This document shows positions 9,925 to 31,779 of a DNA stretch of 35,064 nt, in pieces. How positions within the stretch are numbered: position 1 is the first letter of the stretch; every line of letters starts with the position of its first letter. The translations under genes and the position numbers were made by a program. The notes beneath the pieces are model-generated. The model had not been told where the DNA came from, did not search any database, and saw only the letters and a program-made list of their open reading frames with translations. The DNA is from Verrucomicrobiia bacterium (GTDB lineage: Bacteria > Verrucomicrobiota > Verrucomicrobiia > Verrucomicrobiales > DEV007), in contig JAGROX010000026.1 in the NCBI GenBank assembly GCA_020440025.1, forward strand, positions 24,167-59,230, in the 5' to 3' direction.

Positions 9925-12774
9925 ATGATCGCCACCATGTTCAAACCTCACTTTTTCGCGACCCTGCTGACCTTCGCATCGGCTTGGACGATTCAGGCGG
10001 CCGACTTTCCTGCTCCCTATAATACCGAGAAGGAGGAAACGCCGCCGATGACCGCCGAGGAAGCCGCCAAAGCGGCGAAGTTGCCCCCGGGATTTCATCT
10101 GGAAGTGTTCGCCTCTGAGCCAGAGGTGCAGCAGCCGATCTCCATCAGTTTCGACAAGGCGGGCCGCCTGTGGGTCGCGGAGTGTTACACTTACGCGGAG
10201 CAACCTGGCCGCTGGGATCTCGACCTGCGCGACCGCATTCTGGTGCTCGAGGATACCGATGGTGACGGCAAGTCCGACAAGCGCACGGTGTTCTGGGATC
10301 AGGGAACCCGCCTCACCAGCGTCCTGCCTGGACCGGGCGGCGTCTATGCCCTTTGTGCGCCGCAGCTGTTGTTCCTGCCCGATGCGGACGGCGATTTGGT
10401 TCCTGACGGGGAGCCGATCGTGGTGCTGGATGGATTCGACGCGGAGAGCATTGGCCACAACGTCGTCAACGGTTTGAAGTGGGGGCCGGATGGTTGGATC
10501 TATGGCCGACACGGCATCACCGCCACGTCGGCGGTCGGAACACCCGGAACTCCCAAAGATCAGCGGACGGAACTGAACACCTCGATCTGGCGATTTCATC
10601 CCGGGAGCAAGAAATTCGAAGTCGTCTGCAACGGTGGCACCAATCCCTGGGGAACGGATTGGGACAGCAACGGTCAGCTTTTCTATACCAACACCGTGAT
10701 CGGCCATCTCTGGCACGCGATCCCGGGCGCCTACTACACCCGCATGTTCGGGGCTCATCTGAATCCACATGCCTACGAGTTGATTCCCCACACGGCCGAT
10801 CACTATCACTGGGATTCGGGGGCGGAAAAGTGGAGCGACATTCGGCAGGGGATCACCAACACCACTTCAGCCTTGGGAGGCGGGCACGCCCACATTGGAT
10901 GCCTGATCTACAACGGCGGGGTCTGGCCCGAGAGCTATCAGGGGAAACTTTTTTCCTGCAACCTGCACGGTCGCCGGGTGAACATGGATATACTGGAACG
11001 AGAAGGCGTGGGCTATGTCGCGCACCACGGGAAAGATTTTCTCATGATGGAGGACCCCTGGTTTCGCGGTCTCGATCTGATCACTGGACCGGACGGACAG
11101 GTCTGGATGAACGATTGGTCCGACACGGGGGAATGCCACGACAGCGACGCCATTCATCGCACCAGCGGTCGCATCTACCGAATCGTCTACGACGGGCCGG
11201 ATGCCGGAAAGGCGAAACCTTCGCTCCCTTCCTGGCTCACCGAACGAGCGAATCCAGAATTTGGGAAAGACCAGATCGTTGCTCTGCTGAATTCCGGCGA
11301 TGAAGCCAAGGCATCGATGGGAGTTCGCTGGCTGTGTGAGGATTTTCCGGACGAACCGGAGACCCTGCAAACCCTGCTGAAGATCGCTCGCACGGATCCT
11401 CCGGGCCTCGTTCGTCTGGAACTCGCGTCAGGTCTGCAACGCCTGCCCGGCAAAGAGCGATTCGCTCTGGCCAAGGTGCTCACCCAGGTTGAGAGCGATC
11501 GAGACGACCGCCAGCAATCTCTCCTTATCTGGTATGGGGTTTCCGTATCGGTGGGCGAGCATTTCGAGCAAGGCATTGATCTCGCGATTCATTCCAAATT
11601 GCCGACCGTCACCCGCCTGATTTCGCGTCGCCTCTGCGAAAACCTGGAGCAGCAACCCGACGTGGTGAACGATCTGCTGACCCGTGCCTCGAAGAGCGAC
11701 GCGTCGACCAAGCTGGCCGTTCTCAACGGAATGGCAGCTGCGCTGGAGGGACTCGGAGAGGCCAACGCGCCAGCCGCATGGGAGAAGTTTTCCAGTGACC
11801 TGAGCAAAGGGGAATCCGCCAAGACCGTTCAGAGCCTCTCCGTTCTGTTCGGTGATGGACGTGCCCGTGACGAACTGTTGGCCATCGTGAACAACGAAGA
11901 GGCCGATCCTGGCGCGCGGCGCTCCGCGCTCGCCAGTATCCTCCGCCAACCTGATGAGGCGATGTTGCCGAGCCTGATCGAGTGGCTCAGAGACCGGGTT
12001 CTCGGCTACCAAGTCATTCAGGCATTGGCCGCCTACGATGACTCCGGGATCCCGCCGCGGCTCATCAATCAGTGGCGTTCCCGTGCCAGCGAACAGAGCG
12101 TGATCATTGACACCCTCGTGTCGCGACCGGCCTTTGCGTCGGCTTTGCTCGATGCGGTGGAGGCAGAGAAAATTCCGCGCAATGCCATTTCCCCGCTGCA
12201 GGCCCGACAGATCGCCAACTTCAACGACGAGGCGCTGAGCCAACGGCTTGGCAAGCTGTGGGGTGAAATCCAGATCACCCCCGAAGCGAAACTGAAAGAG
12301 ATCGCGGAATGGAAAACGCTGCTCACGCCCGAAGTGATTGCCGCCGCCGATCCGCTCAAGGGCAAGACGACTTTCACTCAAATCTGCGCAGCCTGTCACC
12401 GACTCTACGGAGAAGGCGGAGCCATTGGGCCCGAGCTGACCGGCAGTGATCGGCACAACATCGACTACCTTCTTGGCAACATCGTCAATCCCAGCGAAGT
12501 GATTCCTGCCGACTATCAATTGACCGTTTTCACGCTGAAAGATGGTCGGGTCGTTTCCGGAGTGGTTCCGGAACAGAATCAGAACAGCGTCACCGTGCAG
12601 GCGGCGGCGGAGAAAGTGACGCTCAAACTCGACGAGATCGCCAAACGGGAAACGCTGCCCGTTTCCATGATGCCCGAAGGGTTGCTCAAAGCTCTCGGCG
12701 AAGACAAAGTCAAGGACCTGGTCGCCTACCTGATGACGAGCGGGCCAGTCATGGACCCTGCGGCCGCCAAGTGA
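9925..12774 (+). CDS. PVC-type beta-propeller/HEAT/CxxCH heme protein
   Basis: A 949-residue exported protein. After the signal peptide (cleavage after 'WTIQA') comes the Pirellula/Verrucomicrobium N-terminal dehydrogenase-like propeller, beginning 'KLPPGFHLEVFASEPEVQQP' and 'FDKAGRLWVAECYTY' and running to about residue 430. Helical HEAT-like repeats follow at about 440-770. The C-terminal cytochrome-type domain binds heme through Cys821-Ala-Ala-Cys824-His825, followed by 'GEGGAIGPELTGSDR'; a Met in 'SMMPEGLL' near 914 may be the distal ligand. These match the two domains named for this phylum group (TIGR02604- and TIGR02603-type). The propeller resembles sugar dehydrogenases, so periplasmic substrate oxidation with electron transfer to the heme is likely but unproven. 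A second in-frame ATG at 9937 gives a tighter signal peptide and may be the real start. Confidence 0.93.
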   Translation: MIATMFKPHFFATLLTFASAWTIQAADFPAPYNTEKEETPPMTAEEAAKAAKLPPGFHLEVFASEPEVQQPISISFDKAGRLWVAECYTYAEQPGRWDLDLRDRILVLEDTDGDGKSDKRTVFWDQGTRLTSVLPGPGGVYALCAPQLLFLPDADGDLVPDGEPIVVLDGFDAESIGHNVVNGLKWGPDGWIYGRHGITATSAVGTPGTPKDQRTELNTSIWRFHPGSKKFEVVCNGGTNPWGTDWDSNGQLFYTNTVIGHLWHAIPGAYYTRMFGAHLNPHAYELIPHTADHYHWDSGAEKWSDIRQGITNTTSALGGGHAHIGCLIYNGGVWPESYQGKLFSCNLHGRRVNMDILEREGVGYVAHHGKDFLMMEDPWFRGLDLITGPDGQVWMNDWSDTGECHDSDAIHRTSGRIYRIVYDGPDAGKAKPSLPSWLTERANPEFGKDQIVALLNSGDEAKASMGVRWLCEDFPDEPETLQTLLKIARTDPPGLVRLELASGLQRLPGKERFALAKVLTQVESDRDDRQQSLLIWYGVSVSVGEHFEQGIDLAIHSKLPTVTRLISRRLCENLEQQPDVVNDLLTRASKSDASTKLAVLNGMAAALEGLGEANAPAAWEKFSSDLSKGESAKTVQSLSVLFGDGRARDELLAIVNNEEADPGARRSALASILRQPDEAMLPSLIEWLRDRVLGYQVIQALAAYDDSGIPPRLINQWRSRASEQSVIIDTLVSRPAFASALLDAVEAEKIPRNAISPLQARQIANFNDEALSQRLGKLWGEIQITPEAKLKEIAEWKTLLTPEVIAAADPLKGKTTFTQICAACHRLYGEGGAIGPELTGSDRHNIDYLLGNIVNPSEVIPADYQLTVFTLKDGRVVSGVVPEQNQNSVTVQAAAEKVTLKLDEIAKRETLPVSMMPEGLLKALGEDKVKDLVAYLMTSGPVMDPAAAK

Positions 12775-12804
12775 GGCTTTTCGAACTCCAATGATCTCGA
12801 CTCA

Positions 12805-12834
12805 ACAGGGTTGGGTCGCTGATTCAACCCTGTT
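12805..12834 (+). repeat. 30-nt palindromic element, copy A
   Basis: The sequence reads ACAGGGT, a 14-base spacer, then AACCCTGTT. With one flanking base each side of the left arm, AACAGGGTT (12804-12812) pairs perfectly with AACCCTGTT (12826-12834): a 9-bp stem and 13-nt loop. It lies 30 bases after the heme-protein stop and ends 22 bases before the ATG at 12857, with an open frame running through it into that gene. Other copies, in sites where a terminator makes no sense, argue against a simple terminator. Confidence 0.8.
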
Positions 12835-12856
12835 TAATTCAACTAATCTATTCACC

Positions 12857-13552
12857 ATGAAACGAAACTCCTTATCCTTGATCTTTGCCGCTGTCCTCGT
12901 CGCGGGCGAGGCTGCTCCCTCCATGCTTCGGGCGGAGGAACCTTTTAAAACCGTTCTGTTCGAGGATGATTTTTCCGGGACGACGCTGAAAGAAGGCTGG
13001 GGTTCATGGAAAAGTGAGACGGTGGTGCGCGACGGCGTCATGGTCGGGATCACGCCGAAAGGTTCTGATCATCCTTCGGTCAACACCGTCGAGCTTCCTC
13101 CCTTGAGCGACATGGAGGTGGCGGTTTCCTTCAAGTTCGCGGGTTCAAACCGATTCAACGTGATGTTTCGTGATCTCGACTACAAAGGCTCCCACGCGGG
13201 ACACATCTGCCATGTGTCGATCACGGACACGGCGGTGACGCTTTTCGACGGAAAGATGGGGATTTTTGCCAACGAATATTACGACAAGAAAAAGGCCGGG
13301 GGAAAACTCAGTGAGGAGGAAAATCAGACCTTGGCGAAAAAGAAGTCCATCACGCCAATCGAAATCGATCCGGAGAAATGGCATGACCTGGTCATCCGTA
13401 TCGAAGGCGATGTCATCAAGGTCTGGATCGACGGAAAACCCTCCGGCACACTTCAGTCGGAAGGTATTGCGCATCCCACCAAGTCGAACATGAACATCAC
13501 GACCGTGGATCGCGAAGTGCACTATGACAACTTCGCCATCCGCAAGCCTTGA
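12857..13552 (+). CDS. Secreted DUF1080/LamG-like protein, 231 aa
   Basis: The ATG at 12857 starts a signal peptide (MKRNSLSLIFAAVLVAGEAA, cleavage near 'LRAEE'); an in-frame ATG 66 bases upstream would translate through the palindromic element and is less likely. The mature domain has the concanavalin-like pattern of DUF1080/3-keto-disaccharide hydrolase proteins: 'VLFEDDFSGTTLKEGWGSW' at the start, 'WHDLVIRIEGDVIKVWIDGK' near residue 180, and the closing 'VHYDNFAIRKP'. It is a single minimal jelly roll with no extra catalytic module. Members either bind or hydrolyse sugars; here binding or a small accessory hydrolase is possible. It follows the PVC heme protein by 82 bases on the same strand and may be co-expressed with it. 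Confidence 0.85.
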   Translation: MKRNSLSLIFAAVLVAGEAAPSMLRAEEPFKTVLFEDDFSGTTLKEGWGSWKSETVVRDGVMVGITPKGSDHPSVNTVELPPLSDMEVAVSFKFAGSNRFNVMFRDLDYKGSHAGHICHVSITDTAVTLFDGKMGIFANEYYDKKKAGGKLSEEENQTLAKKKSITPIEIDPEKWHDLVIRIEGDVIKVWIDGKPSGTLQSEGIAHPTKSNMNITTVDREVHYDNFAIRKP

Positions 13553-16604: not shown

Positions 16605-18134
16605 TTACTCGGCGTGCTGGGCGTCCAGAACGGGGTTGGCAAAAACCTCGGAAGGCACGCGCTCCGAGATCATGAGTTTCTCGATTTCGGCGAGCACTTC
16701 GGGATTCTCGCCAGCCACATCTTTGGATTCCGAGATGTCGGCTTTGAGATCGTAGAGTTCGGTCTTCACCTTCACATCGGCAGGTTTGGTGTTTTTTCCT
16801 CTGGGAATCAGATCCTGTCGGATGCCTTTCCAGCGTTCGCCCAACCAAACGGCCTGTTGGCCGCCATAGCCGCCGAATTCCCGATAGAGAAAGGGACGCT
16901 CGGGCTGTCCCGTGCCGAGCAGGGTGGGGGCAATGCTGATCCCGTCGATGTCGGCGGGCGCCTTGGTTTTGGCGTTCGCCAGATCCAGCAGGGTCGGCAT
17001 CCAGTCCTCGAATCCCGTGACAATGTCCGACATGCTCCCGGCTTCGATTTTGCCGGGCCACTTCACGATCAGCGGTACGCGAACGCCACCTTCGTAGAGT
17101 GAACCTTTCAGGCCGCGCAGCGGTCCAACACTGTCGAAAAACTCGTAGTCCACTTCGTCACCGAGATGGGTGGTGCCGTTGTCGGAGGTGAAAACGACGA
17201 TGGTGTTGTCGGTTAGTTTCAGCTCATCGAGCAGATCCAGCACCCGCCCGATGTAGGTGTCCATCCGGCTGATCATCGCCGCGTAGGCCGCCCGCGGAGT
17301 GAAGTGCGGGGTGTAGCCCGCTTTTTCTCGAGTGAAGGGCGGATCGTTCCATTTTTCGGCGAGATAGGGCTCGAGTTCCTCGTCAGGCACATGGAGCGCC
17401 ACGTGGGGAATGATCGTCGGGTAGTAGCAGAAAAAGGGCTCGTCCTTGTGATCCCGGATGAAGTTCAGCACCTGCTTGTTGATCTGATCCGGCGCATAGT
17501 CCTGCCCTTTGTAGAGATCGTAACTGCGGGGATCTTTCGGATCGGCACCTTCCGCCAATCCTCCGTGACCGGGAACGGGTGGGACATTGCCGAGGGAAAA
17601 CGTGCTGTTGTCGCTCCACAAGGTGGCCGGGTAGTAGCTGTGAGCGTGACCCTGGCAATTGTAGCCAAAGAATCGATCAAAGCCCTGCTTCAGCGGGTTT
17701 CCGGTCGATTGCATGTTGCCGAGTCCCCACTTGCCGAAAATCCCGCTCTTGTAGCCCTCTTCGTGCAGCACCTCGGCGATGGTGACAGCTTCCGCCGTGA
17801 TCGGATGCTGACCCTCGGGTTCGCCGAGCGGGATCATCGAGCGATTGTTGCGGACCTCGGCATGACCGGGATGTTTGCCCGTCATGAGCACGCACCGCGA
17901 CGGAGCGCAGACGGCGTTGCCGGAATAGTTGCGGGTGAATCGCATTCCCTGCGCCGCGATGCCATCGATGCGGGGCGTCCGAATTTTCGTCTGCCCGTAG
18001 CATCCCAGTTCGGCATAGCCGAGGTCATCAGCCATGATGAAAACGATGTTCGGTTTGTCGGCCGCATGGGCCGGGAGCAAGCCTGCCATCAGCAGGGCGG
18101 CGAGAATGATTGAGAAAAACCGGGGGTGTTTCAT
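16605..18134 (-). CDS. Secreted formylglycine-dependent sulfatase (first of three)
   Basis: A 509-residue type I sulfatase with signal peptide (cleavage after 'LLPAHA'). Metal-binding Asp36-Asp37 occur in 'IVFIMADDLGYAELGCYG', the modifiable cysteine is Cys76 in CAPSR (76-80), and 'FTSDNGTTHLGDE' near residue 320 supplies the second metal pair. 'EVDYEFFDSVGPLRGLKGSL' and 'EGGVRVPLIVKWPGK' are standard for arylsulfatase A-like enzymes of the S1 family. It should remove sulfate esters from a glycan or lipid in the periplasm or outside after Cys76 is converted to formylglycine; no maturase is encoded here. It is the first gene of a minus-strand unit with the ceramidase-like hydrolase, hinting at a sulfated glycolipid or sugar as substrate, which is inference. 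Confidence 0.95.
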   Translation of the reverse strand: MKHPRFFSIILAALLMAGLLPAHAADKPNIVFIMADDLGYAELGCYGQTKIRTPRIDGIAAQGMRFTRNYSGNAVCAPSRCVLMTGKHPGHAEVRNNRSMIPLGEPEGQHPITAEAVTIAEVLHEEGYKSGIFGKWGLGNMQSTGNPLKQGFDRFFGYNCQGHAHSYYPATLWSDNSTFSLGNVPPVPGHGGLAEGADPKDPRSYDLYKGQDYAPDQINKQVLNFIRDHKDEPFFCYYPTIIPHVALHVPDEELEPYLAEKWNDPPFTREKAGYTPHFTPRAAYAAMISRMDTYIGRVLDLLDELKLTDNTIVVFTSDNGTTHLGDEVDYEFFDSVGPLRGLKGSLYEGGVRVPLIVKWPGKIEAGSMSDIVTGFEDWMPTLLDLANAKTKAPADIDGISIAPTLLGTGQPERPFLYREFGGYGGQQAVWLGERWKGIRQDLIPRGKNTKPADVKVKTELYDLKADISESKDVAGENPEVLAEIEKLMISERVPSEVFANPVLDAQHAE

Positions 18135-18208
18135 GGGGACTTTTTATCGTGCCAGGCCGTTCCATGCAATCACGCGAATCCGCAGCACACGGTGGTGGCA
18201 TCGATCCA

Positions 18209-18238
18209 ACAGGGTTCAGTCGCGGAGGAAACAGGGTT
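18209..18238 (+). repeat. 30-nt element, copy B with second arm inverted
   Basis: ACAGGGT, a 14-base spacer, then AACAGGGTT. Length and spacer match the other copies, and the spacer keeps GTCGC near the same place, but the second arm is the reverse complement of the usual AACCCTGTT. The copy cannot form the hairpin. It lies between two diverging sulfatase genes, 34 bases before the ATG at 18273, so it cannot be a terminator for either. Confidence 0.65.
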
Positions 18239-18272
18239 GAATCGATCCCGGTTTCTCAGATAGGCTTCCCTC

Positions 18273-19820
18273 ATGCGCCCCATCTTTTTCGCTCTTCTGC
18301 TTTTGCTCCCTTTGATCGCTTCGGCGAAGGAGGAGCGACCGAATATCTTGTTCATCTACACCGACGATCACTCGCATCGAACGGTCAGTTGCTACCCTGA
18401 GGCCTATGACTTTGTCAAAACGCCCCACATCGATGCCCTCGCGGAAACGGGAATCCGATTTCGCTACGCCTACATCGGCACCTGGTGCATGCCGTCGCGG
18501 GCGACGCTGTTGACGGGGCACTACCAGCACGCGGTGGAATCGATGCGGATGGAGGGCGCCTATCCGGGCAGCGAATACGATCCCGAGAAATGCCCGTTCT
18601 GGCCCAAGGTCTTTCGGGAAAACGGCTACCAGACAGCCCAGATCGGGAAATGGCACACCGGCACCGACACGGGCGCGGGTCGCGATTGGGATCATCAGGT
18701 TGTCTGGAACCGACCGCGTCATCCGAAGAATGCGGGGAGCTATTACAAGGATCAGCTCATTGAAAAGAACGGGGCCGAGGCCGAGTTGGTGAAGGGATAT
18801 TCGACCGACAACTATACGGATTGGACCGTCGATTATCTCAAAGGCGAAGGTCGCGACCCGGAGAAGCCGTTTTACCTGTGGCTCTGCTATGGCGCGGTGC
18901 ACGGACCCTTCACTCCGGCCAAACGCCACCTCGAGGCCTATCCTGACGCAACCGTTCCCGTGCCGGCGGACATTTTTCCGCCGCGTCCCGGCAAGCCCGC
19001 CTACATGCAGACCATCGCGAGTTGGATCCCGGGCGAGGACGGGCAGCCGCATCTGAAAGGCAGCAAGCGGGCGACCGGAGAATCCGCTCCCTCAAAGGGG
19101 ATTCACGGCAGTGATTTGAATAGTTGGGTGAGGCAATATCATCAGGGCGTGCTGGCGCTGGATGAAGCCGTCGGCCGAATCGTTCAGACGCTGAAGGACA
19201 CGGGGCTCTACGACAACACGCTCATCGTGTTCACTTCCGATCAGGGCTTCGCCTGGGGGCAGCACGGATTCCGCAGCAAGGTCGCGCCCTATGATGCGAC
19301 CATTCGCAGCCCCATGATTCTGGCGATGCCTTCGCGTTTCCCGCAGGGGAAGGTGAACGACACGCCAGTCGGAGGGGTCGATCTGGTACCGACGTTTTTC
19401 AGCATGGCAGGAATCGAGTTGCCATGGGAAATGCACGGTCGCGACCTGACTCCCTTGTTAGAAAAACCGGAAACGAAGTGGGATCGCTCCCTGCTGATGG
19501 TTCACACCGGCAAATACTATGGATCGGATACCAAGGTCATTCCCACCGATCCTGCGATCCTGAAAGACACCGCCGGCGTGCCTTGGTATGCGTCGATCCA
19601 CGATGGGCGCTACAAATACATCCGCACCTTTGTCGAGGGTGAGATCGAGGAGCTTTACGATTTGGAAAGCGATCCCGAGGAACTCACCAATCTGGCGCAG
19701 GAGAAATCCCAAGCCGCTCGCGTGGCGAAGATGCGTGCGGATACCATCGCCGAGTTGAAGCGCACCGACGCCGGTTTCGCCGATGCCCTGCCATCTGTCG
19801 CGACCGCGAACGAAAAGTGA
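18273..19820 (+). CDS. Secreted sulfatase (second of three)
   Basis: A 515-residue sulfatase with a short signal peptide (MRPIFFALLLLLPLIASAKE). Asp31-Asp32 lie in 'ILFIYTDDHSHRTVSCYPEA'; the formylglycine cysteine is Cys72 in CMPSR (72-76); 'FTSDQGFAWGQHGFRSKVAP' near residue 320 holds the second metal site, with Gln in place of the more usual Asn. 'DDHSHRTVSCY' and the 'GTWCMPSRATLLTGHYQH' block set it apart from the first sulfatase, so it belongs to a different S1 subfamily and probably cleaves another linkage. It is divergent from the first sulfatase across a 138-base gap containing a 30-nt element. No other gene shares its transcript unless the FAD oxidoreductase downstream does. Confidence 0.95.
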   Translation: MRPIFFALLLLLPLIASAKEERPNILFIYTDDHSHRTVSCYPEAYDFVKTPHIDALAETGIRFRYAYIGTWCMPSRATLLTGHYQHAVESMRMEGAYPGSEYDPEKCPFWPKVFRENGYQTAQIGKWHTGTDTGAGRDWDHQVVWNRPRHPKNAGSYYKDQLIEKNGAEAELVKGYSTDNYTDWTVDYLKGEGRDPEKPFYLWLCYGAVHGPFTPAKRHLEAYPDATVPVPADIFPPRPGKPAYMQTIASWIPGEDGQPHLKGSKRATGESAPSKGIHGSDLNSWVRQYHQGVLALDEAVGRIVQTLKDTGLYDNTLIVFTSDQGFAWGQHGFRSKVAPYDATIRSPMILAMPSRFPQGKVNDTPVGGVDLVPTFFSMAGIELPWEMHGRDLTPLLEKPETKWDRSLLMVHTGKYYGSDTKVIPTDPAILKDTAGVPWYASIHDGRYKYIRTFVEGEIEELYDLESDPEELTNLAQEKSQAARVAKMRADTIAELKRTDAGFADALPSVATANEK

Positions 19821-19837: not shown

Positions 19838-19963
19838 GTAGCATGGGATTCCATCCCGTGCCCGTCCGGGCGGGATTGCATCCCGCCCAGCCAGTCGACC
19901 CCGATCTCCGCCTCGCGGGATGAAATCCCACGGGGACAGGCACGGAGTCCAACTCCATGCTAC
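19838..19963. repeat. REP-like cluster of GGGAT-ATCCC hairpins
   Basis: The outer ends are an imperfect inverted repeat: GTAGCATGGGATTCCATCCC from 19838 and, on the opposite strand, the same start read from 19963 (about four fifths of 25 positions match). Inside are successive small hairpins of one design, GGGAT-NNN-ATCCC: at about 19844, in GGGCGGGATTGCATCCCGCC at about 19869, and GCGGGATGAAATCCC at about 19915; a diverged one (GGAGTCCAACTCC) lies near the right end. This looks like an extragenic palindromic repeat cluster. It differs in sequence from the REPs around the transposase. Confidence 0.75.
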
Positions 19964-21954: not shown

Positions 21955-21959
21955 GAGCT

Positions 21960-22045
21960 GTAGCACAGGCATTCTTGCCTGTGATCTGTGATCTGTGATC
22001 CCATATTTTTACTTTTTCCTCCACAGGCAGGAATGCCTGTGCTAC
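21960..22045. repeat. Left REP pair
   Basis: Two 24-nt copies in opposite orientation: one begins GTAGCACAGGCATTC at 21960, the other ends with its reverse complement at 22045. They are separated by 38 bases that include three copies of GATCTGT/GATCCC-type sequence. Each copy is itself a hairpin (CACAGGCA..TGCCTGTG). The left copy has one mismatch (TTCTTG for TTCCTG). Confidence 0.85.
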
Positions 22046-22057
22046 GACCGACTTGTC

Positions 22058-22750
22058 ATGGCTCGCGGTCCTTTTTTGCTTGATCCGCCTCCGGGATTTC
22101 AGGGGTTCGATCCTTGGAAGTCAGTTCGAGTCTATCGCCGAAATCTGCCTCACTGGCGTCAGGATGGGGCGACGTATTTTGTTACCTTCCGGTTGGCGGA
22201 TGCCCTTCCCGCGAAGTGCCTCCGCGAAATCGCCCGAGCCAAAGCCGCCTGGGAACGGGAACATCCCGAGCCCAGATCCGATGAGGACTGGCGCGAGTAT
22301 GCCCAACTGATCACGCGGCGAGAGGAACAATGGCTGGACCGGGGTCACGGGAAATGCTGGCTCGCACAACCGGAGCATGCCGGCCGGATCGTGAGCGCCC
22401 TGACGAAATTCGACAGCCAGCGCCTCCATCTCGGCGCGTATGCCGTGATGCCCAACCATGTGCATGTCATCGTGCGACCGTTGCCGGGCCATGAACTCGA
22501 TGCGATCACGAAAGGCTGGAAAGGATACACGGCTCGGGAGATCAACGAAGCGGTCAGCCGTCGGGGGACTTTGTGGCAGGAGGAGAGTTACGATACGATT
22601 ATCCGGGATGCCGAGCATCTCTATCGGGTCATTCGATACATCGGCGATAATCCCCAAAAAGCCGGCTTGGCGAGAAGGTGTCCCCTGTGGGTTCGCAAGG
22701 ACTGGAGTGATGCGGGCTTCCGATTTCGAAAGGAAGGAGATGAGCCGTAG
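22058..22750 (+). CDS. REP-associated tyrosine transposase (RAYT)
   Basis: A 230-residue Y1 HUH nuclease. The metal-binding motif is 'MPNHVHVIVRPL' with His134 and His136. The catalytic tyrosine is most likely Tyr178 in 'LWQEESYDTIIRD', followed by the family's 'RVIRYIGDNPQKAGL' block. The N-terminal 'RRNLPHWRQDGATYFVTFRL' is characteristic of the verrucomicrobial/planctomycetal RAYT group. The ATG at 22058 is preferred over an upstream in-frame ATG at 21995, whose extra residues are translated REP sequence. The enzyme would nick and join single-stranded REP DNA in flanking repeats. The TAG stop (22748-22750) lies inside the downstream REP, so gene end and repeat have evolved together. All key residues are present, so it is probably active. 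Confidence 0.93.
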   Translation: MARGPFLLDPPPGFQGFDPWKSVRVYRRNLPHWRQDGATYFVTFRLADALPAKCLREIARAKAAWEREHPEPRSDEDWREYAQLITRREEQWLDRGHGKCWLAQPEHAGRIVSALTKFDSQRLHLGAYAVMPNHVHVIVRPLPGHELDAITKGWKGYTAREINEAVSRRGTLWQEESYDTIIRDAEHLYRVIRYIGDNPQKAGLARRCPLWVRKDWSDAGFRFRKEGDEP

Positions 22751-22809
22751 CACAGGCATTCCTGCCTGTGTGATTTCGCAATGAACACAGGCAGGAATGC
22801 CTGTGCTAC
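22747..22809. repeat. Right REP pair overlapping the RAYT stop codon
   Basis: Two exact inverted 24-nt copies, 22747-22770 and 22786-22809, separated by 15 bases. The first supplies the stop codon of the RAYT gene. Together they can fold into a long imperfect hairpin. Confidence 0.9.
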
Positions 22810-22825
22810 TGCCTACGACGAATAA

Positions 22826-22840: not shown

Positions 22841-22958
22841 GACGTCGCGGTGGGAGAGGACGACGCACCCTTTCCGCTGGCGGAAGGGCGGGGCGTTTCG
22901 AAGGCGGAGCGAAAAGGTCTCCAGGTGATCGTGAAGGGTTCATCCCGTCGGCGACCCA

Positions 22959-22988
22959 ACAGGGTATGATCGCCGACCCAACCCTGTT
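22959..22988 (+). repeat. 30-nt palindromic element, copy C
   Basis: ACAGGGT, a 14-base spacer, AACCCTGTT. The stem extends to CAACAGGGT/ACCCTGTTG. It ends exactly 22 bases before the ATG at 23011, the same distance as copy A from its gene, and again an open reading frame runs through it in phase. The surrounding 22841-23010 contains no other gene that I can support. Confidence 0.8.
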
Positions 22989-23010
22989 GAATCCGCCGCT
23001 GTCGGTGGCG

Positions 23011-23334
23011 ATGACTTCGCCTCGGCGGTCGATTGACGGGGAGAAAGCGCCCTTTGCAAGACCGTCCCAAGCGTTTGCATTCCTGTTGCAGGAAGATTCA
23101 TTCTTCTTGCACGCAGTTTACTTCTTACTCCAATCTATTGCATGCCTGCTAAACGCGTTTGAATTCTTATTCAACGCCGTTGAAATCCAGCGACTCGCTA
23201 TTGAATTCCTGCTGAACGCTATCGAATTCACCTTCCACTCTGCTGCATTCCTGCTCCACGCCATTGAATTCTCGGAGCAAGCTGTTTACTGTTTAGAGCA
23301 AGTGATTGCATTCCTCTCCTGCGCCGTTGATTGA
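23011..23334 (+). CDS. Heptad-repeat protein, 107 aa, unknown function
   Basis: I do not recognise the family. After a short basic leader (MTSPRRSIDGEKAPFARPSQ) the protein is twelve consecutive seven-residue units with consensus A-I-E-F-L-L-N (for example AFAFLLQ, AVYFLLQ, SIACLLN, AFEFLFN, AIEFLLN, AIEFTFH, AIEFSEQ), then CAVD and stop. The units differ widely at third codon positions of codons 1, 5 and 6 while the encoded residue class is kept; the opposite strand in the same register has a stop (TTA in unit 11 reads TAA). This favours translation in this frame. A seven-residue period with Phe/Leu at fixed positions would form one long amphipathic or membrane-associated helix. The frame is open further upstream to 22837, but that part is repeat-derived. 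It may instead be non-coding repeat DNA. Confidence 0.5.
   Translation: MTSPRRSIDGEKAPFARPSQAFAFLLQEDSFFLHAVYFLLQSIACLLNAFEFLFNAVEIQRLAIEFLLNAIEFTFHSAAFLLHAIEFSEQAVYCLEQVIAFLSCAVD
23071..23322. repeat. Twelve tandem 21-nt degenerate units
   Basis: Units start every 21 bases from 23071 and share the core (T)TG(A/C)ATTC at the same offset; the approximate consensus is GCNNTTGAATTCCTGCTNNAC. The period equals two turns of B-DNA, so the cores would face the same side of the helix. Copies are diverged, with no identical neighbours, so this is not a recent slippage product. The array is AT-richer than its surroundings. Confidence 0.8.
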
Positions 23335-25202: not shown

Positions 25203-26153
25203 TTAGATTTTCCCCTCAAGCACTTCCTCCAGCATCACTTCGCGTCCGAGTTCGAGCGACCGCTTTCCGGCTTCGAGGGCGGCGATGACTTCGACCTCTT
25301 CTTCGACGGGCACGCTTTCCTTGCCGGTATCGAGCAGATTGAGGAAGGCGTCGAGCAGGTAGGAATAGAGATTCGTGAGATCGGGCTGAACCGTTTTCCA
25401 GCCTTTCTCACCGTAGAGATTGATCTGGTAGCCGGCCCGCATCCATTCCTTTTCGGCGACCATGAGCATGACGTCGCGGTGGTTGTCGAATCGGAGACGA
25501 ACGAGGTTGCTGCCGGGTTGACCGACATTCATCGCGCTCACGGCACCACGCCCGAGGACGGCGTAGATCATGGAAAGGGCGTGAATGCCGTAGTAGACCA
25601 GTTCGTTGCCACAGGCGGCGCTGGCGAGATTGACGTTGCCGAGTTTGGGCAGATCAACCTCGCGCAGATTGACGATGTCGGGGACAAAACGCAGGCTGCT
25701 GGCCGACATGAAGGGCGTCTGGGTTTCCCGCACCAACTTGGCGACGGCCTGGGCTTCGCGGGCGGTCATGGCGAGCGGTTTGTCGCAGAAAACCGGGATG
25801 CCTTTTTTCAGGGGATGAGTGGCGTATTTCCACTGTGCTCCGCTGCCATCGTCGATAATGAGCACGGCATCGACACCCTCGCAGGCGGCTTCGGGTGAAG
25901 TGGCGACTTCCTCGACGCCGCAGACATCGGCGAGTTTTTTGGCAGCGGCCTGATCGGGATCCCAGAGTTTCACCACTCGGGCGCCTTCCAGTTTTCGACC
26001 CGACTTCACGAAGGTGCCTTCGATCGTCTTGGCTTTTTCCTCATCCCAGCCATTGAAGGTGGTGGTGAAGGCGGTGCCATGGTGCGAGCCCGGCGTACGG
26101 GGTTTGTCGCGATAACCATAGGTGGCGGCGGAGATGACGGCGAGGCGGCGCAT
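25203..26153 (-). CDS. Gfo/Idh/MocA-family oxidoreductase, divergent member
   Basis: A 316-residue protein of the same superfamily. It begins 'RRLAVISAATYGYRDKPRTP' without a normal GxGxxG motif, so the first part of the nucleotide fold is unusual, but then follows the family closely: 'VVKLWDPDQAAAKKLADV', 'GVDAVLIIDDGSG', and the cofactor motif as DKP in 'GIPVFCDKPLAMTAREAQ' (about residue 122). 'ACGNELVYYGIHALSMIYAV' supplies the catalytic-region His. A loop 'DKPRTPGSHHGTAFTTTFNG' replaces the standard glycine turn and may bind metal or a different cofactor. There is no signal peptide. The start lies 17 bases downstream (minus sense) of copy D of the 30-nt element. The substrate is unknown. 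Confidence 0.88.
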   Translation of the reverse strand: MRRLAVISAATYGYRDKPRTPGSHHGTAFTTTFNGWDEEKAKTIEGTFVKSGRKLEGARVVKLWDPDQAAAKKLADVCGVEEVATSPEAACEGVDAVLIIDDGSGAQWKYATHPLKKGIPVFCDKPLAMTAREAQAVAKLVRETQTPFMSASSLRFVPDIVNLREVDLPKLGNVNLASAACGNELVYYGIHALSMIYAVLGRGAVSAMNVGQPGSNLVRLRFDNHRDVMLMVAEKEWMRAGYQINLYGEKGWKTVQPDLTNLYSYLLDAFLNLLDTGKESVPVEEEVEVIAALEAGKRSLELGREVMLEEVLEGKI

Positions 26154-26170
26154 GATGGGGAAGGGGAGTA

Positions 26171-26200
26171 TTCAGGGTTGAGTCGACGACCATACCCTCT
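26171..26200 (-). repeat. 30-nt palindromic element, copy D
   Basis: Read on the minus strand it is AGAGGGT, a 14-base spacer, AACCCTGAA; arms are slightly diverged, spacing is identical. It lies between diverging genes, 17 bases before the minus-strand ATG at 26153 and 70 bases before the plus-strand ATG at 26271, so it is a leader or promoter-region element, not a terminator. Confidence 0.7.
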
Positions 26201-26270
26201 TTGGTCGGTCTTGAGATCCCCCGCAATGGCGGGATGGACCGGCGCGGCGGCGATCTCTATGAATGTGGTC

Positions 26271-27356
26271 ATGAAATTCCTTCTCGGCCTGATTTCCCTG
26301 TGGTGTCTCACGTTTTCCCCGGTGATCGCGGAAGGGCCAGAGCCCGAACCGCCGGGTTTGAAACGGGTGGTGGCGGTGGAGAATGTCTGTGCCTGGCCCA
26401 ATCTGACGCTGATGGCCGATGGCACGGTGATCGCGGTCTTTCACAATCAGCCGAGTCATGGCCAAGGGGAGGGGGACATCGATTGCTGGGCCAGTCGCGA
26501 TGGGTTGACCTGGGAAAAGCGGAGCACGATCACCGCGCATTTGCCGGACACCGTTCGGATGAATCACGCGGCTGGTTTGGCGAGGAACGGCGATCTCGTG
26601 GTGCTTTGCTCGGGGTGGACAAATGTGAAGCAGCCGGAGCGTCCCAAGCAGTCGGCCTTTCGCGATGACATTTTGCGGAGCTGGGTGCTGCGCTCGGCCG
26701 ATGGCGGTCGGACCTGGGAAAAGCGCGAGGCATTCCCCGCCACCGAGCCGGGATGGTCGGAGCACATTCCTTTTGGCGACATCTGGGCGGGCGACGATGG
26801 TGCGCTCCACACCTCGTGTTATCAGGGCGAGTTCGTCGATCCGGCGGTGTCGACCAAGACGAAAGGATGGCGGTCCTGGCATTTCAAAAGCGAGGACGAC
26901 GGTTGGACTTGGAAACCGGTCTCTATCATCGGGCCGACACACAACGAGACGGACCTCTTCTATCTCGGCGGGAAAAGCTGGCTCGCGGCGGCGAGGATCA
27001 CCACGATGGAACTGTTCCGCAGTGACGACAATGGCGTGACCTGGCAGGCGCCTCAAGTGGTCACGGGAAGGAACGAGATCAACGGCCACCTCGAGCGATT
27101 GAAAGATGGGCGGCTATTGCTGAGTTACGGCGTTCGCGTTGATGGTCGCCGAGGCGTGCTCGCGAAGCTCAGCGCTGACGAGGGAAAAACGTGGGGCGAA
27201 CCCCTGCGTCTCGCTCACACGGTCGATGGCGGGGATTGCGGATATCCCTCCAGCGTTCAGCTCGCCAACGGCAAGATCGTGACGGCTTGGTATTCCAAGG
27301 AAACGCCGGACCATGTCGGCTATCACATGGGTGTCAGCATTTGGGAAGCGCCGTAG
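26271..27356 (+). CDS. Secreted BNR/Asp-box sialidase-like protein
   Basis: A 361-residue exported protein; ATG 26271 gives the signal peptide MKFLLGLISLWCLTFSPVIA. Several Asp-box (S-x-D-x-G-x-x-W) turns mark propeller blades: 'ASRDGLTWEKRS', 'RSADGGRTWEKRE', 'KSEDDGWTWKPVS', 'RSDDNGVTWQAP' and 'LSADEGKTWGEP'. Sialidase-type 'GHLERLKDGRLLLSYGVR' and 'YPSSVQLANGKIVTAWYSK' follow. The fold is therefore the six-bladed propeller of the sialidase superfamily. Typical catalytic Arg triad positions cannot be confirmed by eye, and in this phylum most homologues are unclassified exo-hydrolases, so hydrolysis of sialic acid specifically is not claimed. Two further in-frame ATGs upstream (26079, 26259) are less suitable starts. 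The stop is 4 bases from the convergent PQQ-like gene. Confidence 0.88.
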   Translation: MKFLLGLISLWCLTFSPVIAEGPEPEPPGLKRVVAVENVCAWPNLTLMADGTVIAVFHNQPSHGQGEGDIDCWASRDGLTWEKRSTITAHLPDTVRMNHAAGLARNGDLVVLCSGWTNVKQPERPKQSAFRDDILRSWVLRSADGGRTWEKREAFPATEPGWSEHIPFGDIWAGDDGALHTSCYQGEFVDPAVSTKTKGWRSWHFKSEDDGWTWKPVSIIGPTHNETDLFYLGGKSWLAAARITTMELFRSDDNGVTWQAPQVVTGRNEINGHLERLKDGRLLLSYGVRVDGRRGVLAKLSADEGKTWGEPLRLAHTVDGGDCGYPSSVQLANGKIVTAWYSKETPDHVGYHMGVSIWEAP

Positions 27357-28768: not shown

Positions 28769-30235
28769 ATGAGACCTTTGACTTTCCTTCTTCTCTTCTC
28801 ATTCATTCCGATGGGAAATTTTGCGATTTCGGCGGAATCGATTGCCATCGGTGATCGCCGCGAACTGCTGGTGGACCATGAATTGATCGATTCGCTTGAG
28901 AACGTTCAGCTGGTGATGCATCCGCCTCGAGACGAGGGGCCGGTGCTGAAATTTGAGCGTCCGTGGGAGGGGCGATTCAGCGGCTACGCGACGGTGATTC
29001 GGGACGGGGACCTGTTTCGACTCTACTACCGGGGAAATCCCGAGGCGGGAAAAGACGGCGACAAGGATGAGGTCTATTGCTATGCCGAATCCACCGATGG
29101 TATCACCTGGATGAAGCCTGATCTCGGTCTGTATGAGATCGACGGCACGCGGGAAAACAATGTCGTGCTCGCCAACGTGGCACCGATCACCCACAATTTC
29201 AGTCCCATGCTCGATACCCGCGCCGGGGTTCCGGCGGATCAGCGATTTAAGGCGCTCGGTGGGACAATGGAAAGCGGGCTGGTGGCGCTGGTTTCTGCTG
29301 ACGGGAAAAGCTGGAAGAAGCTGCGGGAGGAAGCGGTGATTCCCGGTTCGATGGTGCCTTTTCCCTATTACTTCGATTCACAGAACGTGTGTTTTTGGTC
29401 GGAGGCCGAGCAGAAATACGTCAGCTTCTTCAGGGTATTTGAAAACAAGATTCGACGGATCTGCCGAATCACGAGCGATGATTTTCTGACGTGGTCCGAG
29501 CCGGTTCTGATGGAGTATCAGCACGAGGGTGGTGACGCGCCGATCGAACACCTCTACACCAATCAGACGCATCCCTATTTCCGGGCACCCCATCTCTACT
29601 TGTCGATCGCCGCGCGCTTCATGCCGGGCCGTCAGGTGCTGACCGATGATCAGGCCAAGGCGATCGATGTGAATCCGGGCTATTTTAAGGACACCTCCGA
29701 TGCCATTCTGATGACGGCGCGTCCGGGGCGTGGTCACTACGAGCGGACCTTTCTCAGCAGCTTCGTTCGCCCGGGAATCGGGGCGCGGAACTGGGTGTCC
29801 CGGACGAATTATCCGGCACTCAACGTGGTCCAGACCGGGCCGACGGAGATGTCGGTCTATCTGAATCAGGACTACGCCCAGACCACTGCGCACCTGCATC
29901 GTTATTCCATGCGGCTGGACGGATTTTCCTCCGCCCAAGGAGCCTATGAGGGTGGTGAACTGATCACGAAGCCGCTGACTTTTTCCGGCAAAGAACTGGC
30001 GCTGAATTTCTCGACCTCGGCTGCCGGAGGGATTCGGGTGGAGATTCAGGATGTCGAGGGGAAGGCGATTCCCGGGTTCTCGCTGGCCGAGGCGAGGGAA
30101 CAAATCGGCAACGAGATCGAGCGGGTCGTTTCGTGGAAGGGGGGCAGTGATGTTTCCTCCTTGGCTGGGAAAGCAGTTCGGTTGCGCTTTGAGTTGAAGG
30201 ACGCGGATCTCTTTGCCTTCAAGTTCTCCAAATGA
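28769..30235 (+). CDS. Secreted GH32/GH43-like five-bladed propeller protein
   Basis: A 488-residue exported protein. ATG 28769 begins a signal peptide (MRPLTFLLLFSFIPMGNFAI) and has GGAAGG 6 bases upstream, one of the few clear ribosome sites here; an ATG 90 bases earlier is rejected. The mature part begins 'IAIGDRRELLVDHELIDSLE' and runs through the pattern of the GH32/43/62/68-type superfamily: 'ATVIRDGDLFRLYYRGNP', 'CYAESTDGITWMKPDLGLYE', 'FDSQNVCFWSEAEQKYVSFF'. A C-terminal beta-sandwich ('ELALNFSTSAAGGIRVEIQD', about residue 395 on) resembles the GH32 accessory domain. Catalytic acids cannot be assigned by eye. It overlaps the sulfatase downstream by four bases (ATGA), so the two are translationally coupled and probably serve the same sulfated glycan. 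Confidence 0.9.
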   Translation: MRPLTFLLLFSFIPMGNFAISAESIAIGDRRELLVDHELIDSLENVQLVMHPPRDEGPVLKFERPWEGRFSGYATVIRDGDLFRLYYRGNPEAGKDGDKDEVYCYAESTDGITWMKPDLGLYEIDGTRENNVVLANVAPITHNFSPMLDTRAGVPADQRFKALGGTMESGLVALVSADGKSWKKLREEAVIPGSMVPFPYYFDSQNVCFWSEAEQKYVSFFRVFENKIRRICRITSDDFLTWSEPVLMEYQHEGGDAPIEHLYTNQTHPYFRAPHLYLSIAARFMPGRQVLTDDQAKAIDVNPGYFKDTSDAILMTARPGRGHYERTFLSSFVRPGIGARNWVSRTNYPALNVVQTGPTEMSVYLNQDYAQTTAHLHRYSMRLDGFSSAQGAYEGGELITKPLTFSGKELALNFSTSAAGGIRVEIQDVEGKAIPGFSLAEAREQIGNEIERVVSWKGGSDVSSLAGKAVRLRFELKDADLFAFKFSK

Positions 30236-31779
30236 TGAAATTCCTATTCTCATTCACTTGCCTGATTCTTTCGGGTTCAGGTATCGCAGCCTCCGCCGAG
30301 CGCCCTAACATCATTTATATCCTCGCTGATGACATGGGGATCGGAGATGTCAGTTGTTACAACGAGAACGCCAAGCTCTCGACGACGCACATCGATCGAT
30401 TGGCGGCGGAGGGGATGCGGTTCACGGATGCCCACACGCCGTCGGCGGTTTGTTCGCCGACGCGATACGGGATTCTGACCGGTCGCTATTGCTGGCGGAC
30501 GCGCTTGAAATATCGAGTGCTGGACGGCTTTGATCCGCCACTGATTGAACAGGGTCAGGTCACGGTTCCAACCCTGTTAAGTGGGGCCGGATACGACACG
30601 CATTGCGTCGGGAAATGGCATCTCGGAATGACGTGGACGGATCGCGAGGGCAATCCGATGCCAGCGGTTCCCCTGGAGCGTAAGGGGCCGCCTCGGGCGG
30701 GGGAGGAAGTGGATTTTTCAAAGCCGGTGATCGGCGGACCGACAGCGGTGGGCTTTGATACTTACTTTGGGATTTCGGCGTCGCTGAACATGTCGCCGTT
30801 TTGCTACTTGGTGAATGATCGCCCTTATCGATTGCCAGTGTTGCCGCAGGAGAAGATGCAGACCGAATTCATTTCGGTCGACAAAGGGGTGCGTTCGCCG
30901 GATTTCACGATCTTCGGGGTGTTGCCTCGACTCGCCGGGGAGGCGGTGGCAGTGATCGAACGACAGGCGACCGAGCGACCGGACACGCCCTTCTTTCTTT
31001 ACGCGCCGCTGACGTCGCCGCATTTGCCGGTGGTGCCAAACGAGGAGTTTCGCGGTCACAGCGATGCGGGGGAATACGGGGATTTTGTCGAGGAAACCGA
31101 TGCCTTTGTCGGCGCGGTGCTGGAGACGCTGGAACGGACGGGGATCGCGGACAATACATTGGTCATTTTCACCGCCGACAACGGCAGCCTATATCACTGG
31201 TGGGAGGCGCAGGAGGCGGACGACGTGAAACATTACCAAGTGCGAAATCGCGGGCTTTCGATGAAAGAACTCGGGCATCAGGGGAACCGTCATCTCCGCG
31301 GCACCAAGGCAGACATCTGGGAGGGCGGTCACCGGGTTCCCTTTGTGGTTCGTTGGCCCGGGAAGACTCCGGCGGGCACCGTGAATGATCAATTGATCGA
31401 GTTGACGGATTTGCTGGCAACCTGTGCGGCGATCGTGGGCACGGAACTTCCTGAGGGGGCGGGGGAAGATTCGCGGAACGTGCTGCCCGCTTTTCTGAGC
31501 GTATCGCAGGACAAGCCGTTGCGGGATTTCTCAGTTCATCATTCGCTTTGGGGTGTGTTCGCGATTCGGCAGGGACCGTGGAAAATGATTCCGCATCGCG
31601 GCTCGGGCGGTTTCACGTCTCCGAGGGACATTGATCCGGCGAAGGAGGGCGGGCCTCCGGGGCAGTTGTATCATTTGAACGACGACCCGTCGGAAACTCG
31701 GAACGTGTGGGATGAACATCCAGAGGTGGTGGCACGGCTGAGCGCACTGCTCGAAAAGGTGAAGGGAGACGAGGCCTGA
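30232..31779 (+). CDS. Secreted arylsulfatase (third of three)
   Basis: A 515-residue sulfatase with signal peptide (MMKFLFSFTCLILSGSGIAA). Metal Asp33-Asp34 occur in 'IIYILADDMGIGDVSCYNEN', the formylglycine cysteine is Cys74 in CSPTR (74-78), the 'HCVGKWHLGM' block holds the conserved Lys-His pair near residues 128-132, and 'IFTADNGSLYHWWEAQE' supplies the second metal pair. A 'GHQGNRHLRGTKADIWEGGH' segment is normal for S1 arylsulfatases. It starts inside the stop codon of the GH-like gene. A copy of the 30-nt palindrome (30549-30578) is embedded in the frame, encoding 'EQGQVTVPTLL' where relatives have sequences like 'TVASLL', so it does not break the fold. Confidence 0.95.
   Translation: MMKFLFSFTCLILSGSGIAASAERPNIIYILADDMGIGDVSCYNENAKLSTTHIDRLAAEGMRFTDAHTPSAVCSPTRYGILTGRYCWRTRLKYRVLDGFDPPLIEQGQVTVPTLLSGAGYDTHCVGKWHLGMTWTDREGNPMPAVPLERKGPPRAGEEVDFSKPVIGGPTAVGFDTYFGISASLNMSPFCYLVNDRPYRLPVLPQEKMQTEFISVDKGVRSPDFTIFGVLPRLAGEAVAVIERQATERPDTPFFLYAPLTSPHLPVVPNEEFRGHSDAGEYGDFVEETDAFVGAVLETLERTGIADNTLVIFTADNGSLYHWWEAQEADDVKHYQVRNRGLSMKELGHQGNRHLRGTKADIWEGGHRVPFVVRWPGKTPAGTVNDQLIELTDLLATCAAIVGTELPEGAGEDSRNVLPAFLSVSQDKPLRDFSVHHSLWGVFAIRQGPWKMIPHRGSGGFTSPRDIDPAKEGGPPGQLYHLNDDPSETRNVWDEHPEVVARLSALLEKVKGDEA
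30549..30578 (+). repeat. 30-nt palindromic element, copy E, inside the sulfatase gene
   Basis: ACAGGGT, a 14-base spacer, AACCCTGTT, with arms identical to copies A and C. The reading frame through it is in the same phase as the open frame through copy A. Either an element became exapted as coding sequence, or the coding constraint produced a strong coincidence. Confidence 0.6.

Follow-up and report, generated by a model that had tools for sequence, protein, structure and literature searches.

Between two divergently oriented sulfatase genes in the window (the whole stretch of 35,064 nucleotides analysed here) lies a short two-armed repeat, copy B, whose arms run in the same direction, while copies A, C and D, the window's other clear examples, are inverted with the same spacing. 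The locus raises the question of whether copy B is a flipped and rare member of a family of inverted repeats, or one of the regular forms that such an element can take. In the window sequence, AACAGGGTT occupies 18208-18216 and is repeated in the same direction at 18230-18238, with 13 bases between the 9-base arms and a period of 22 bp. A sequence-only reading of this locus had correctly recognized the direct repeat, since both same-direction arms were found, but the repeat begins at 18208, one base before the stated 18209, and its spacer is 13 bases long and not 14. The features needed for the argument are as follows.

12799..12839, no strand assigned: copy A, inward (><) pair, arms 12804-12834, after the gene ending at 12774
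16605..18134, minus strand: sulfatase (PF00884, 190.6 bits), divergent neighbour of copy B
18203..18221, plus strand: left unit of copy B, GATCCAACAGGGTTCAGTC, core orientation '>', matching the 19-bp unit profile
18225..18243, plus strand: right unit of copy B, GAGGAAACAGGGTTGAATC (the 'flipped' arm), core orientation '>'
18273..19820, plus strand: sulfatase (PF00884, 158 bits), divergent neighbour of copy B
22953..22993, no strand assigned: copy C, inward (><) pair, arms 22958-22988, from the window pattern scan
26165..26205, no strand assigned: degenerate inward copy with substituted cores, between 25203-26153 (minus) and 26226-27356 (plus)
30543..30583, no strand assigned: copy D, inward (><) pair, arms 30548-30578, within the sulfatase CDS 30232-31779

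With up to one mismatch, the window contains 15 occurrences of AACCCTGTT, where 4.99 would be expected, and none of 100 shuffles reached 15. As called, ORF 12791-13552 (3-keto-disaccharide hydrolase domain) runs over copy A at its 5' end, but the ATG at 12858, which by eye is a plausible alternative start for that ORF, lies downstream of the copy. Copy C overlaps no gene at the stricter calling threshold and a weak ORF (22966-23334) at the looser one. Copy D shares 39 of 41 bases (counted by eye) with its counterpart in the genome labelled G003, compared with 78% identity across the sulfatase gene, and its third codon positions are identical at 12 of 15 sites inside the copy versus 248 of 463 outside. 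Since 16-codon windows of the same gene starting at 30592-30604 and 30853-30859 are equally or more conserved, copy D alone is weak evidence. A candidate third unit to the left of copy B, centred at 18190, had the one-mismatch core ACACGGT and poor arms and was rejected; by our own estimate, about 0.6 one-mismatch third units are expected by chance among approximately 120 elements.

Architecture and orientation of the element

A profile of 119 distinct elements defined the element as two 19-bp units whose centres are 22 bp apart, the three bases that separate them being loosely conserved. The unit, GAYYNAACAGGGTNNRRTC, is an imperfect palindrome with an asymmetric core and can be written out as GAYYN-AACAGGGT-NNRRTC, where the core AACAGGGT is constant by search design and the inner arms differ between genomes. 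The cores of the two units may point either way, giving inward, direct or outward pairs. The profiled loci were picked partly by orientation and the outward form was over-sampled, so orientation proportions were taken only from whole-genome counts.

In the source genome (6.38 Mb in 500 contigs), 258 core-exact pairs were found, of which 143 were inward, 96 direct and 19 outward, and reversed controls gave none. The exact direct pairs were distributed as 39 and 57 on the two strands, again with no match for the reversed control. Relaxed searches gave the same picture: the inward form, AACAGGGT-N15-ACCCTGTT, occurred at 212 places with up to one mismatch and its reversed pattern at none, the direct form at 227 places with up to two mismatches versus 1 for the control, and the outward form at 31 places with up to one mismatch and none for the control. 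Further flipped copies, which the sequence-only reading had proposed to look for across the genome, are therefore present far above chance frequency. The same counts undo its description of copy B as a peculiar rare flip, as the direct form accounts for 37% of the core-exact elements.

The distance between units is rigid. When only units with intact arms were taken in, offsets of ±22 bp alone recurred (73 and 61 cases) and every other listed offset occurred once. Such strict units were partnerless in just 2 of 64 cases in the source genome (761 kb) and 2 of 76 in G003 (930 kb). Three-unit cases were rare in the source genome (G000), with two genuine-looking examples (L008 and L162). Stretches of G002, some of them chosen for the arrays listed there, had three or four units in 7 of 21 arrays. 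Several of the G002 arrays (among L288-L298) are bordered by TTTCCGATC ... GATCGGAAA, and several of the G025 copies (among L299-L305) are bordered by A- and T-runs as judged by eye.

The proportions of the three forms were compared with those expected if each unit were oriented independently of its partner. In the source genome, 141 inward, 99 direct and 17 outward pairs are expected, very close to those observed (p=0.60; p-values for orientation and gene context rest partly on rounded background shares). Independent orientation also fits G001 (p=0.85), G003 (p=0.65) and G013 (p=0.33), and thus four of the six element-rich genomes. The fifth, G025, is marginal, with a slight departure (p=0.03), and the model fails for G002, where a strong excess of direct pairs was found (77/185/21, p=1e-9). 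The inward share of exact copies is 55% in the source genome and 92% in G025. Because the split in the source genome is what independent units predict, there is nothing anomalous in a direct copy, and no special inversion is needed to explain it.

Other repeats were also noted in the window. A Y1_Tnp transposase gene (PF01797, 34.3 bits) at 22058-22750 has GTAGCACAGGCATTCCTGCCTGTG-type palindromes on both sides (window 21955-22816), and this region looks like a RAYT with its own REP/BIME sequences, distinct from the AACAGGGT elements. The gap after the sulfatase gene contains a long imperfect inverted repeat (19838-19963) that starts with GTAGCATGGG and ends with CCATGCTAC, and similar sequence occurs at many places in G001 and G003. 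Tandem-like repeats of about 21 bases, TTGAATTCTTATTCAACGCC and variants, occupy 23096-23330.

History of copy B and conservation of the element

The divergent sulfatase pair is common to the source genome and two congeners, G001 and G003. Alignment of the orthologous promoters, an approach suggested by the sequence-only reading, revealed the element and not unrelated sequence in both G001 and G003, in each case as an inward pair with one core mismatch; no element was found in the orthologous stretch of G002. The right unit of copy B aligns with the left unit of the G001 (L228) and G003 (L229) elements, with 14 of 15 positions identical, and this aligned unit is centred 39 bp before the sulfatase ATG in all three genomes. 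The second unit lies 22 bp downstream of it in G001 and G003 and 22 bp upstream of it in copy B, and no unit was found in G001 or G003 at the upstream place that matches the left unit of copy B. In forced alignments, a shift scored higher than an in-place flip for both G001 (36 versus 26) and G003 (20.5 versus 8.5). The intergenic gap measures 138 bp at copy B, 115 bp in G001 (about one unit shorter) and 175 bp in G003; since the G003 gap is the longest of the three, gap lengths alone do not decide between shift and flip. The 30 bp downstream of copy B are too diverged to anchor the alignment, which leaves the shift as the more probable reading rather than a certain one. Most simply, these alignments would be explained by a one-unit shift of the pair at this promoter rather than by inversion of an arm, in which a left unit may have been gained and a right unit lost at copy B, or the reverse may have taken place in the relatives.

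A true in-place inversion of the second 9-base arm appears unlikely. It draws on the observation that 12 other orthologous pairs keep their orientation, making copy B a real exception, and on a left-anchored comparison in which the first unit is separated from the shared CAATCACGCGA by 30 bp here and by 28 bp in G001 (hand count). However, its alignment scores fall below those of the shift in both genomes, unit identity drops to 12 of 15 compared with 14 of 15, and the flip would need, in addition, an indel of about 22 bp to account for the gap length in G001 (115 versus 138 bp). The local inversion that had been considered more likely than point mutation for copy B is thus not supported, either by these scores or by the share of direct copies, which is as expected for independent orientation.

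Conservation was then assessed at orthologous places in the two directions. A place in G003 could be assigned to 24 of the 120 elements of the source genome; 14 rows, representing 13 distinct loci as two rows are the copy B locus, had an element within 200 bp, and the other 10 had none at the mapped place, perhaps in some cases through paralogous mapping. Orientation class was the same at 12 of the 13 distinct loci, the exception being copy B. Since class is unchanged at these 12 loci, copy B is a genuine exception in its evolution, although direct pairs as such are common. In the reverse direction, 31 of 101 G003 elements were mappable, 13 with an element in the source genome and 18 without, and orientation agreed in 11 of the 13. 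The exceptions were copy B and the copy A locus, where the direct element of G003 lies 156 bp from the mapped place. Where both flanks were orthologous, the element was present at 5 of 6 distinct loci. An element is expected within 200 bp at a rate of approximately 3% by chance, according to our own density estimate, and conservation at orthologous places is above this rate, as it should be for a dispersed family of protein-binding sites.

Recognition, genomic setting and proposed function

Across the 119 elements, Watson-Crick pairing exceeded the composition expectation by no more than 0.04 at any tested pair of positions, whether within or across units. Inward copies folded no better than their column-shuffled versions, both in the source genome (-18.5 versus -19.1 kcal/mol) and in G025/JABDJT (-18.1 versus -18.9 kcal/mol). 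One of eight fold comparisons beat its shuffles, by about 1.6 sd, and this was the outward set (n=19) with longer flanks. The strongest dependence was between the neighbouring core positions +4 and +5, which are mostly TG, CA or TA and also AT, and suggests readout by a protein. Given no covariation and folds similar to those of column shuffles, recognition is at the DNA level. The idea that the direct copy retains two protein-contact sites holds up well, as the family behaves as DNA-level sites and not as RNA hairpins. Copy B had also been expected to help tell RNA from DNA function; the question is answered in favour of DNA for the whole family, and this answer does not depend on copy B.

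These data bear directly on the possibility of an RNA hairpin or intrinsic terminator, in which the inward copies fold into a 31- to 43-nt hairpin. Elements do lie near stop codons, inward copies form the majority of exact copies here and nearly all of those in G025, and several G025 copies have A- and T-run flanks. Nevertheless, compensatory changes are missing, the fold energies in both genomes are about as expected from column shuffling, the direct copies, over a third of exact copies in the source genome, have no long hairpin, and a T-run is absent from the flank profile of the source genome, which makes a terminator most improbable. Rfam gave no matches in the window at the gathering threshold.

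Gene context was derived from calls made with our own simple codon-usage caller, and the counts omit weak-armed elements. In the source genome, 87 of 117 elements fell in intergenic classes and 17 inside genes, while 83% of random points in this genome are coding; the corresponding numbers inside genes were 26 of 93 in G003, 7 of 61 in G025 and 6 of 29 in G002. Within co-directional gaps, elements lay nearer to the upstream stop than to the next start in 31 of 50 cases in the source genome, 24 of 38 in G003, 19 of 24 in G025 and 4 of 14 in G002, with median distances to stop and next start of 46.5 and 102 bp, 45 and 88.5 bp, 34 and 66.5 bp, and 119 and 63.5 bp, respectively. Convergent gaps were enriched in the source genome and G025, marginally so in G002 (p=0.047), and not in G003 (p=0.93). 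Divergent gaps held 13 elements versus 26 expected in the source genome, 6 versus 16 in G025, and 16 versus 16.5 in G003. Direct copies ran against gene direction in a ratio of 43:13 when pooled; the source genome alone gave 16:8, which is not significant (p=0.15).

A divergent promoter would be a natural place for the operator of a transcription factor controlling a sulfatase regulon. Two divergent sulfatases flank copy B, a third contains copy D, and the element is kept at this promoter in G001 and G003. Such an operator is nevertheless very unlikely: only 3 of 84 element-adjacent genes are sulfatases versus 24 of 592, which is no enrichment (15 weak-armed elements were omitted from this test), the scanned neighbours of conserved elements are functionally mixed, and the deficit in divergent gaps holds for the source genome and G025, though not for G003.

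The element is confined to a narrow lineage. Among 386 genomes sampled from the order, 35 contained exact inward sites, with no matches for controls, and every one of the 35 belongs to one of three genera (g1, g2 and g11) out of 50. Members of g2 ranged from 0 to 87 such sites, a contrast within a single genus that could help to find the binding protein. A one-mismatch search of 57 genomes, in which controls gave one match per strand in six, detected 1 to 2 places in three genomes of other genera, which is the control level. Among the matches listed (at least 104 stretches and 80 loci), all named loci were titled Verrucomicrobiales, Verrucomicrobiia or Verrucomicrobia. In the viral contigs of IMG/VR, an exact search for the inward pattern including TC...GA gave no match. 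The 20 proteins scanned against Pfam, 15 of them encoded next to conserved elements and 5 elsewhere in the window, shared no DNA-binding family; a single one is a sigma-70 region-2/4 protein. A description of the element was not found in the freely accessible literature searched.

We consider it probable that copy B is the direct form of a dispersed, rigid paired operator for a putative lineage-specific DNA-binding protein. The protein, the symmetry of its dimer and its cooperativity are inferred. Most likely, a symmetric dimer of the protein would occupy each unit and two such dimers would bind together. Units exactly 22 bp apart, or about two helical turns, would present themselves on the same face of the DNA, and a symmetric dimer would accept a core in either direction, so that inward, direct and outward pairs would all work. 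A tentative role for the sites is at transcription-unit ends, where they may serve as a boundary, as a roadblock or in nucleoid organisation. A simple symmetric dimer would not be expected to require an asymmetric core, and the paired-operator model has further evidence against it in G002, with its departure in orientation, its arrays of three to four units and its lack of stop proximity. Also counting against it are the slight orientation departure of G025, the lack of convergent enrichment and the 26 intragenic elements in G003, the non-significant direct-copy bias in the source genome alone, the mapped places that have no element, and the one outward set that folded better than its shuffles.

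A doubtful though conceivable variant is a lineage-specific chromosome-boundary system of the Verrucomicrobiales, in which the protein would bind hundreds of rigid two-unit sites, mostly intergenic and often directly behind genes, core direction would be informative and the site would function as a roadblock or insulator, either polar or bipolar. Direct pairs would then mostly face against co-directional transcription and inward pairs would serve convergent genes, and 'flipped' copies would be functional settings and not damage. Under the paired-operator model, what seemed an odd single copy becomes one of the states in a two-unit code that extends over the genome. To our knowledge, little is known of such proteins in this phylum. 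If the protein is found, the three genera, whose genomes carry between 0 and 478 exact inward copies, would provide natural cases in which hundreds of sites were gained or lost, and these could be used to test the role of paired intergenic sites in transcription ends or chromosome folding.

Comparison with known systems

The element resembles REP/BIME sequences in copy number, size and intergenic 3'-end location, as these are described in PMC3733652. A palindromic repeat of the REP/BIME type, spread by a transposase (RAYT) and retained at gene ends, would account for hundreds of short intergenic copies near stop codons and for enrichment in convergent gaps in the source genome and G025, which the same text reports for REPs along with GTAG or CGTC tags and variable dimer spacers. 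It is also in keeping with nearest-neighbour distances somewhat below those of column shuffles and with the Y1_Tnp genes present in these genomes, including the one in the window. We nevertheless regard it as quite unlikely. The consensus of the 119 elements has neither tag, stem covariation is not seen, the core is orientation-free, the phase is fixed at 22 bp where REP dimer spacers vary, and elements are conserved at orthologous places (13 loci in one species pair). Y1_Tnp genes and elements are also mismatched between genomes, with 36 matches and no elements in G006 and one match and 123 exact copies in G013.

The uptake sequences known so far function as short motifs that occur singly. 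A two-unit DNA uptake (transformation) signal with genus dialects would be consistent with hundreds of copies, a conserved core with arms differing between genomes, sites both within and between genes, and an orientation bias relative to genes. The uptake sequences of Neisseriaceae and Pasteurellaceae share the copy number, the occurrence within and between genes and the orientation bias (PMC2346458), and they too have dialects. According to PMC2346458, many known uptake sequences are not inverted repeats, and 65% of those in H. influenzae are in coding sequence, compared with 17 of 117 elements in the source genome. The present element is moreover obligately two-unit, with single units almost absent in both genomes where they were counted, and an uptake signal is on balance improbable.

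Two further systems share features with the element. The omega repressor of pSM19035 reportedly binds repeats in direct or inverted order, and tolerance of both orders is shared by the present element. The omega heptads are 7 bp long, contiguous and located at a few plasmid promoters; the element described here consists instead of 19-bp units in fixed chromosomal pairs.

ARG boxes, the sites of hexameric ArgR, are two imperfect palindromes of about 18 to 19 bp set 3 bp apart on one face of the helix (PMC6640053), and the 19-bp units and 22-bp period found here match that paired-box layout. No arginine genes were found among the 20 scanned proteins, and GAYYNAACAGGGTNNRRTC is unrelated to the ARG-box consensus. 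The present element differs from ARG boxes in its G-rich asymmetric core that is usable either way, and in its occurrence at hundreds of sites, often at gene ends.
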